Part shown: positions 13,080 to 17,909 of the stretch, one piece after another
Layout of the letters: every line of letters begins with the position of its first letter
How positions within the stretch are numbered: position 1 is the first letter of the stretch
NCBI GenBank assembly: GCA_945861245.1
Contig: CAMAUE010000004.1
Location: 1-64,000 of the forward strand
Reading direction: 5' to 3'
Origin: Singulisphaera sp. GP187
GTDB lineage: Bacteria > Planctomycetota > Planctomycetia > Gemmatales > Gemmataceae
DNA: 64,000 nucleotides
The notes under the pieces: model-generated
What the model saw: the letters and a program-made list of their open reading frames with translations, nothing else
Databases searched by the model: none
Told to the model about the DNA's origin: nothing
Position numbers and translations under genes: made by a program

Positions 13080-13245
13080 TATACTTCGCACAGATGGAAT
13101 TGTAGTGTTAAGGGACGAATCGAATCTTTTCCGAGCCGCGACCGTCAGGGAGCGGCCGACAAGATGCCGTGCGCTCGTGGTCGGCCGCTCCCTGACGGTC
13201 GCGGCTCGGAATGGCGCCGAACCCGTCATGAATGGCGGGCTATAG
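13080..13245. mobile_element. MITE-like repeat B, copy 2 (diverged, about 166 bp)
   Basis: TATACTTCGCACAGATGGAATTGTAG...CCGAGCCGCGACCGTCAGGGAGCGGCCGAC...GCGGCTCGG...CTATAG. Confidence 0.65.
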
Positions 13246-13615: not shown

Positions 13616-13776
13616 TATACTTCGCACGGTAGAATTTGTCGCTTTTACGAGCCGAATTAAACATTTCCGAGCCGCGACCGTAAGGGAACGGCCGACATAA
13701 ACCTCCCGGCATCCTGTCGGCCGCTCCCTTACGGTCACGGCTCGGAAAAGCGGCAAACTCACCCGTCAAAGGTATA
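13616..13776. mobile_element. MITE-like repeat B, copy 3 (161 bp)
   Basis: TATACTTCGCACGGTAGAATTTGTCGCTTTTACGAG...central CCGAGCCGCGACCGTAAGGGA hairpin...AAACTCACCCGTCAAAGGTATA; inverted relative to copy 1. Confidence 0.75.
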
Positions 13777-15610: not shown

Positions 15611-15687
15611 CCCGTTATTTTATGATCAACGGAGTGTCGGGAGGAAAAAAATGTCGTTCCGGTAATTAACAACGAAATATTGTGATT

Positions 15688-15720
15688 GTATAGCCGCTCG
15701 CCTTTAGCGAGCGGCTATAC
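15688..15720. repeat. Short palindrome family D copy
   Basis: GTATAGCCGCTCGCCTTTAGCGAGCGGCTATAC. Confidence 0.8.
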
Positions 15721-15730
15721 ATTTGGATTG

Positions 15731-16684
15731 TCACTTCCGCCGATTGTTCCACGGGAACGGGTCGACCACTTCGACGGGCAGTGTCGAGATGCGTTCGCCG
15801 AGGATGCCCTCGAATATCGAGGCATAGACGCGGTCGATCTTCGACATCGAATGGGCGGCCATCAGGACGTGCACTCGGCCTTGCGTGCCGAGCACCCAGC
15901 CTCGGCCGGCGCGGTCTTGCACCGCTTTTGCGCCGGCGGCGTTTTTGGCGTTTTCTTGCTGAGCGCGGAACGTAACGTCCGGGCCGTCGATCGGCGCGGG
16001 ACGCAGCACCGGAGCGAGCGGCTGACCCGTTGGATCGCGGTACGTCAGCGAATCGTTGGGGTCCTGCTTTTCGGGCGGATCGAACGTGATCGGCTCGACA
16101 ACCAGACCGTGCTCGCGCTTGAGCTTGTCGGCATGGGCGGTGCGCATGTAAATCTTGAATTTGCCGCCGTCACCTTTCGACTCGGCGACTGCCTTCTTTA
16201 CAGTTTCGACAGTCCACTGGGCCTCGCGCAGGAACTGATCGCTATTTACGGGGCCTGCGACGGCGTGCAACACGCGGCCATCAGGTGCACAGAAGTAGCA
16301 AGCGACGTTGCCGCCTTGTTTCTGCTTCCCGACGATGCGGAACGTGCCGACGCGCTGAAATGAGGCGACGAAATATTTCTCGACGAATTCGCCGACTTTC
16401 GGACTGGCCAATGCGTTCACACGGAGCGCTTCGGCGTTGTTTCAGGTATAGTCGGGTTCTTCAAAGTAGCCGGAGATGTGAATCACCAGCACGAGCTTCT
16501 CTTCTTTGGCGGCTTTCGTCGCCGCTTCTTTGGGATCCTTGGCGAATTTGACGCTTGTCCCATGATCGCCGCAAGTCGGCTCAATCGGGAGCGGCGAGGC
16601 GGGTTTTTTGCCTCCGGCCGATGCGGACAGGGTGAAACTCGCGGTCAGGGCAGCGACGGCGAGCAGACGCAGGAACCAACGCAC
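15731..16684 (-). CDS. Thioredoxin-like secreted protein, candidate selenoprotein (in-frame UGA at 16444-16442)
   Basis: GTG at 16684 preceded by GGAGG; VRWFLRLLAVAALTASFTLSASA...LVLVIHISGYFEEPDYT(UGA)NNAEALRVNALASPKVGEFVEKYFVASFQ...GGNVACYFCAPDGRVLHAVAGP. The two listed ORFs (16442..16726 and 15731..16420) are in the same frame across the TGA. Confidence 0.7.
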
Positions 16685-16823
16685 GTGGGGCCTCCTTTCG
16701 AGTAACGGATTTCGCACGGTGTACACAGATAAGACGAATGATGACGCGATTTCGTTTGCGCGACGACATCTGTGGTGCTTATCATATATGATATCCGCAT
16801 TATCATGCAGTTATTAAAGGAGC

Positions 16824-17909
16824 ATGCGCATGAGTTCCAATATGCGTCGGGAAGACAAGAAACGGCGGCGCGAAAAACGCCAATCCAAACGAGATCGCGA
16901 TGGCGACCGAGTGGACGACATGCTTAAAATGCTGGATCGGGCCGCGAACACGAAATTATCCGCGACATTCCCAGGCGCGTGCCATCCGTCCGTGAGCCGA
17001 CCGGATGCTCTGAAATTTGAGTTCGCACAGTGGGTTGCCAAAGGCCTCGGCAGCGATCGCATGCGACGGTTTGAGCGAAACATTGAGCAAGGTTTGCTCG
17101 CGGATTTTCCCAATCTTGATGATTGGGCGGCGGAGGAATTTTTCTGGCACGGCGCGCCCGGCGATCCGTGGCACCCAATCGATGCTTTCCTGGCGGCACA
17201 TGGCGACCGCTTTCCGCCTGCCGCTCAGGAGCAGATCAAACGCTGGAAGCAGGCCAAGTTTGGTTTCTACGAAGTCGGCGCCTGTGCGGACGATCTGATC
17301 TCGCTGCGTGAACGCGATCCGCTGACTATGCAACCCGTCGGCGATTGGATTCGGGCCATCGCGCTCAACATCGGCGGCGTGAACGATTACGCCAAGCAGA
17401 AAGGTTCAGTGGTAGTCACCTATGTTGCGCCGTGGGTGCCGGAGCAGAATATTTACTGCGCGATGGGCTACGGCATAGGGCTTTCCGAAGCCGGTTGTGC
17501 GCCTGTTGCGGTAGCGGTTATAGGCATGCGAAACATCAAAGCGGTAGCTATTCCTTTGCCGTGGCGGGGCGGGAAAGTCCCATTACAGAGATCCCTCGAA
17601 ACATGGCTCCAGCGCAATTGGTTCTTGTGGATGAAAGAGCGCGTTCGCTGTCCGTTCCCGGCGGTTGTGATGCCGCCGAACAGAGGCTCGCGAATTCTTA
17701 CAATCGATGACTGGGTTACGCAATCTGCCGAGGAGGCTGAGAAGATCGGCATCCACTTCTGCGCCAGTATCACGCCGGAAGAATTCGGCGTCTTCGGCGC
17801 GACGACGATCACGCCGCTCGATTTTGAAGGATCAACCGCATCGGCGCTGGCGGAGTACAAGGCGTTTCGTATGCTCACCGCCGAATTGATGCGCCGGAGT
17901 CGCCGGTGA
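16824..17909 (+). CDS. Hypothetical protein with Arg/Lys-rich N-terminus
   Basis: 361 aa ORF; MRREDKKRRREKRQSKRDRDGDRVDDM; its stop codon lies in a palindromic repeat. Confidence 0.5.
   Translation: MRMSSNMRREDKKRRREKRQSKRDRDGDRVDDMLKMLDRAANTKLSATFPGACHPSVSRPDALKFEFAQWVAKGLGSDRMRRFERNIEQGLLADFPNLDDWAAEEFFWHGAPGDPWHPIDAFLAAHGDRFPPAAQEQIKRWKQAKFGFYEVGACADDLISLRERDPLTMQPVGDWIRAIALNIGGVNDYAKQKGSVVVTYVAPWVPEQNIYCAMGYGIGLSEAGCAPVAVAVIGMRNIKAVAIPLPWRGGKVPLQRSLETWLQRNWFLWMKERVRCPFPAVVMPPNRGSRILTIDDWVTQSAEEAEKIGIHFCASITPEEFGVFGATTITPLDFEGSTASALAEYKAFRMLTAELMRRSRR

Follow-up and report, generated by a model that had tools for sequence, protein, structure and literature searches.

The selenoproteins closest to the protein described here have selenocysteine (Sec, U) in a thioredoxin fold. 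In the AhpC/TSA-like UxxS and GPX-like UxxT proteins, as in the present one, Sec is the sole nucleophile of the motif and no motif cysteine is present (PMC13188914, Table 1), but these are different families and no NCBIfam sequence match to them was found. The Trx7/PDZ selenoprotein (NF041199) is likewise a Thioredoxin_7-like selenoprotein, with a CxxU motif in which Sec takes the second position (PMC13188914); membership of this family is rejected at 15 bits against a cut-off of 300. The VPGUxxT type 2 family (NF041383) also carries Sec in a thioredoxin fold and has weak similarity over about 60 residues with some members of two subfamilies described below (UTNA and USAG). However, the new proteins have xxA or xxG after Sec rather than xxT, the best NF041383 score is 20.6 bits against a cut-off of 275, and the protein of the present locus gives no match at all. 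A weak NF041383 match with one in-frame TGA, the third in its own genome, lies elsewhere in the same assembly (L155; G000 contig 182, 10474-10695).

Gene layout and reading frame

The window analysed, 64,000 nucleotides long, is a stretch of contig 4 in a draft planctomycete genome of 6.04 Mb, and the features of the locus are collected in Table 1. Two reverse-strand open reading frames, 16442-16726 and 15731-16420, lie in the same frame with the TGA at 16444-16442 as their sole break, an arrangement reported by the first-pass annotation and borne out by the strand sequence and its translation. The two frames are a single gene with the UGA inside it. The start is likely the GTG at 16684, which is preceded by GGAGG and begins a signal peptide (MRWFLRLLAVAALTASFTLSASA); both had been recognized earlier and are present in the sequence. 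The GTG at 16726, which opens the upstream frame, is not the start of the gene. A copy, 99% identical, occurs in a Gemmataceae MAG from Lake Baikal (L012).

Table 1. Coordinates of the predicted selenoprotein gene and its associated features
Feature	Position	Strand	Description and basis
Selenoprotein gene (predicted)	15731..16684	-	Begins at GTG and ends at TGA; 317 codons, one of them an in-frame TGA; product secreted, with a thioredoxin fold; translation with TGA as U, 37-row alignment, orthologues
In-frame UGA, predicted selenocysteine	16442..16444	-	Residue 81 of the 317-aa protein; aligned rows have U in 82/82, Cys in 11/11 of the sister group and the first Cys of CxxC in the outgroup (n=3)
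SECIS hairpin	16407..16435	-	Loop CGUGU, G second, loop start 18 nt past the UGA; fold, conserved loop and stem variants, constraints of the PMC13188914 model
N-terminal signal peptide	16616..16684	-	Cleavage near SASA; predicted by eye from the sequence
Ribosome-binding site region	16689..16697	-	Contains GGAGG, upstream of GTG 16684; sequence
Stem-loop, terminator-like	15687..15721	not assigned	15 pairs, just 3' of the gene

The neighbouring genes in the window (dnaX, recR, alpha-2-macroglobulin and an unknown ORF) give no functional hint, and comparison of gene neighbourhoods shows that conservation ends at close relatives. An ORF of 361 codons at 16824-17909 on the forward strand, transcribed away from the selenoprotein gene, is 77% identical in two close relatives and has no Pfam match.

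Conservation of the UGA in Gemmataceae and the wider phylum

A six-frame search finds an orthologue in 47 of 98 Gemmataceae genomes, representing 24 of 40 genera, and the remainder are without the gene. The TGA is in frame at the same codon in each full-length orthologue, and its context is always T-U-NNAEALRV in the 32 orthologues inspected. Paralogues with an N-terminal membrane anchor in place of the signal peptide also carry the TGA. Alignment A1 comprises 37 rows; it is ungapped at the UGA, and the UGA, the TUNNA motif, an A and an R are invariant, while the seven codons after the UGA (NNAEALR) form the most conserved stretch of the protein. Across 40 codons upstream and 100 codons downstream of the UGA, dN is well below dS, so both flanks belong to a single coding sequence under selection.

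A single stop within an otherwise open frame is what would be expected if a recent nonsense mutation or a sequencing error had broken a normal gene, and the first-pass annotation held nonsense mutation to be the main alternative. However, the identical TGA is found in all full-length orthologues and, in genomes assembled independently, in distant subfamilies, TAA or TAG is never found at this position, and dN/dS is low downstream of the TGA. With the same codon recurring in dozens of species, and purifying selection acting on either side of it, this explanation is excluded. The frames can also be listed as two proteins, one a short secreted peptide terminated by the UGA and the other an ORF reinitiated at the GTG at 16420. 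This is extremely unlikely, since the UGA falls inside the thioredoxin domain, the NNAEALR codons are the protein's most conserved, and the Cys homologues are uninterrupted.

Two degenerate Gemmataceae paralogues, with Ala (and a Cys just before it) or Ser replacing Sec (L052 in G044 and L053 in G035), speak against the selenoprotein reading; they are decayed copies in which the Sec codon has been lost naturally. In another genome (G010), an UNNA-type paralogue is divided into halves about 41 kb apart (L054 and L055; contig 1, 4082589-4082876 and 4123365-4123586). Its 5' half continues into a serine-recombinase-like ORF, which suggests the insertion of a mobile element.

Searching 399 genomes of the phylum with the A1 profile gives 24 carriers, all with the TGA. 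Further subfamilies can be distinguished by the residues that follow Sec, namely UTNARLAR (UTNA), USAGHSLR (USAG) and USAAHAMR (USAA), and the Sec column contains U in all 82 rows examined from the UNNA, UTNA, USAG and USAA types. The domain profile A2 matches 161 of the 399 genomes at E 1e-4, the weakest matches including ordinary thioredoxins, and 60 of the 98 genomes of the window's own family at 1e-8. A sister group without the stop (CANS rows), encoded as a continuous protein, has Cys exactly at the Sec column in 11 of 11 rows (LS-C-ANSRFFRTVLY), and three ordinary CxxC thioredoxins among the stop-free matches align their first Cys with Sec. In the tree one well-supported branch (96/100) parts all the Sec rows from the Cys and CxxC rows; long branches leave the fine placement uncertain.

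The genome of the window encodes a second member of the family, of the UTNA type (EKFC-UGA-TNARLARAVLF), which has its own hairpin (L145/L157; G000 contig 56, 3639-4052, reverse strand). Next to this paralogue is a sequence similar to an intergenic repeat of the window, where two copies (13129-13211 and 13664-13748), 536 bases apart, are built of near-perfect inverted arms of 32-34 nt flanking a spacer of 17-19 nt.

Selenocysteine machinery and the SECIS hairpin

The same genome encodes SelA (477.6 bits, 4e-143), SelB (362.8 bits, cut-off 242, 3e-108), SelD (286.4 bits, cut-off 125, 5e-85) and a tRNA-Sec (selC) with anticodon UCA (69.8 bits, cut-off 47). Across the phylum, SelA is over the cut-off in 51 of 57 UGA carriers vs 248 of 399 genomes overall (Fisher p ~9e-7), where carriers are defined by a match containing the TGA with E of 1e-25 or better and the counts were read by hand; related genomes are not independent in this test. 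Six carriers are counted as lacking SelA: four have no match and one a partial match, all five genomes being incomplete; the sixth, for which no bit score was shown, was excluded conservatively. The co-occurrence test relied on SelA and not on tRNA-Sec: in the 98 genomes ordinary tRNAs gave matches as well, and scoring covered only 38 candidates per genome. SelB is over its cut-off in 13 of 16 genomes, a set made up of some with weak results for tRNA or SelA and a few more.

The model of bacterial SECIS elements has a loop of 3-9 nt, a G within the first two loop positions, a distance of 16-37 nt from the UGA and an MFE of -7.5 or lower (PMC13188914). The window hairpin passes all four constraints, with a 5-nt loop, G second followed by U, 18 nt and -11.4 kcal/mol. 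Its stem pairs GCCGAAGCG with CGCAUUGGC, interrupted by one A-A mismatch and then extended by U-A and C-G pairs to close the loop CGUGU, so that it folds as originally proposed, with the second-position G and the spacing of about 18 nt. The energy itself is not unusual, either for the window hairpin against dinucleotide shuffles (z = -0.77) or for UNNA-type hairpins against synonymous shuffles (n=51, mean z = -0.1). Since energy is uninformative vs synonymous shuffles, the loop codons and the covariation of the stem were used instead.

For the Arg codon at Sec+7, which lies in the loop, 45 of 51 UNNA rows use CGT against a background of 8%, and all 31 UTNA, USAG and USAA rows use AGA or AGG against 11-21%. 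The six-pair stem is intact in every UTNA (10/10), USAG (15/15) and USAA (6/6) row, compared with means of 3.2, 2.9 and 4.2 pairs after synonymous shuffling; the 3' arm of USAA is shifted by 2 nt with complementarity still perfect. In the upper stem of UNNA, 0 of 1000 column shuffles pair equally well, and one stem position shows G-C, A-U, U-A, C-G and G-U pairs. The shuffles ignore relatedness and hence do not give strict probabilities. The rare synonyms fixed in the loop, the intact and complementary stems and the UNNA covariation together show that the hairpin RNA is under selection. The apical loop CCGUG is common to most UNNA members and to the UTNA and USAG members.

UGA readthrough exists in some lineages, and on this general ground the codon could be decoded as an ordinary amino acid, such as Trp or Cys, by a suppressor tRNA. 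This is very unlikely in view of the dedicated tRNA-Sec (UCA), SelA, SelB and SelD of the genome, the co-occurrence with SelA, the SECIS-type hairpin with its conserved loop G, and Cys as the aligned residue. The window protein is thus very probably a selenoprotein with a thioredoxin fold, its Sec being inferred without protein or 75Se data. The decoding proposed by the first-pass annotation is supported by the invariant TGA, the Cys sister group, the Sec machinery and the fit to the SECIS model; the checks that it named have found UGA or Cys at this position in the homologues, selA, selB, selC and selD in the genome, and a hairpin that conforms to the published bacterial model.

Active site and relation to known families

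The AlphaFold model of the window protein has a mean pLDDT of 83.9, and its thioredoxin domain spans the UGA. Foldseek matches it to DsbH, DsbD-gamma, a putative disulfide isomerase, AGR3 and ERp18 with probability near 1.00, the best E being 2.8e-3 and none falling below 0.001. The first active-site helix begins with Sec. The column of the second CxxC Cys is A or G in 82 of 82 Sec rows, and the cis-proline column before strand beta-4 is V, I or T in the same 82, vs Pro in all three CxxC rows; the Cys sister group has S in the former column and S or C in the latter. The downstream CYFC motif noted at first is conserved in its second Cys and not in its first. A second Cys, C132, never varies within UNNA or UTNA and is absent from USAG and USAA.

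In the proposed mechanism, inferred from sequence, SelB and tRNA-Sec would read the UGA at 16444-16442 as Sec under the guidance of the downstream hairpin. Sec takes the site of the first, nucleophilic Cys of the thioredoxin CxxC. The selenol may then attack a peroxide or an oxidised thiol, and an external thiol or a Cys outside the motif may reset it. A Sec-only site is suggested by the absence of the CxxC second Cys as well as the cis-proline. Most likely the protein acts outside the cytoplasm as a Sec-only redox enzyme, with the functional step inferred and our confidence in it about evenly balanced; a peroxidase or thiol reductase activity remains an inference and the substrate is unknown.

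Alternatively, the protein may be a selenoprotein whose Sec binds a metal or is paired with another Cys in a selenenylsulfide, metal binding being a live alternative to peroxidase or thiol reductase activity. The cis-proline of thioredoxins disfavours metal binding, and here it is replaced by V, I or T; the invariance of C132 in UNNA and UTNA would also fit. However, USAG and USAA do without C132, which by homology (an inference, with no distance measured) is at the far end of strand beta-4. We regard this alternative as rather unlikely and continue to prefer the Sec-only redox enzyme. More tentatively, with doubt slightly outweighing belief, the proteins may form a phylum-wide, undescribed exported superfamily lacking the resolving Cys and the cis-proline, with a Sec-only chemistry (peroxidase, deiodinase-like or metal-handling) unseen in other thioredoxin-fold selenoproteins.

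With standard annotation ending these genes at the UGA, a whole class of exported redox proteins goes unrecorded in planctomycete genomes or is recorded in truncated form, and the family may rank among the main reasons that planctomycetes keep selenocysteine. It provides a well-conserved set of bacterial SECIS elements and a natural series, with Sec in four subfamilies, Cys in the sister clade and Ser or Ala in decayed copies, in which to ask what selenium contributes to the thioredoxin fold.

The window protein has no Pfam match, and nothing specific is found in Pfam or NCBIfam with either this protein or A1. Against the sequences of solved structures, A1 has no match and A2 weak thioredoxin matches only, and the subfamilies match PF13899 and PF03190 at E 2e-4 at best. 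In the inventory of 119 families (May 2026), no UxxA entry has a thioredoxin fold (Table 1, PMC13188914). The family is not listed in a 2022 review, deep-Sep or other searchable papers, none of which ties such a protein to Planctomycetes. The families of Haft and Tolstoy (2025) are reportedly included in the 2026 table, and Deng et al. (2026) are said to have screened groundwater MAGs and may include some members among unvalidated candidates. A 2016 paper describes Sec machinery in Gemmata obscuriglobus, and the passages of it that were available contain no protein of the family (PMC4807772).

A canonical CxxC thioredoxin is rejected as a classification: the fold agrees, but neither the CxxC second Cys nor the cis-proline is present. 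We therefore call this a new selenoprotein family of a known type whose active site is unusual; Pfam, NCBIfam and the 2026 inventory do not include it. It is alike in fold to Thioredoxin_7, DsbH, DsbD-gamma and AGR2/AGR3, whose first active-site Cys aligns with Sec, and differs from all of them in having Sec for this Cys, no second Cys and no cis-proline.
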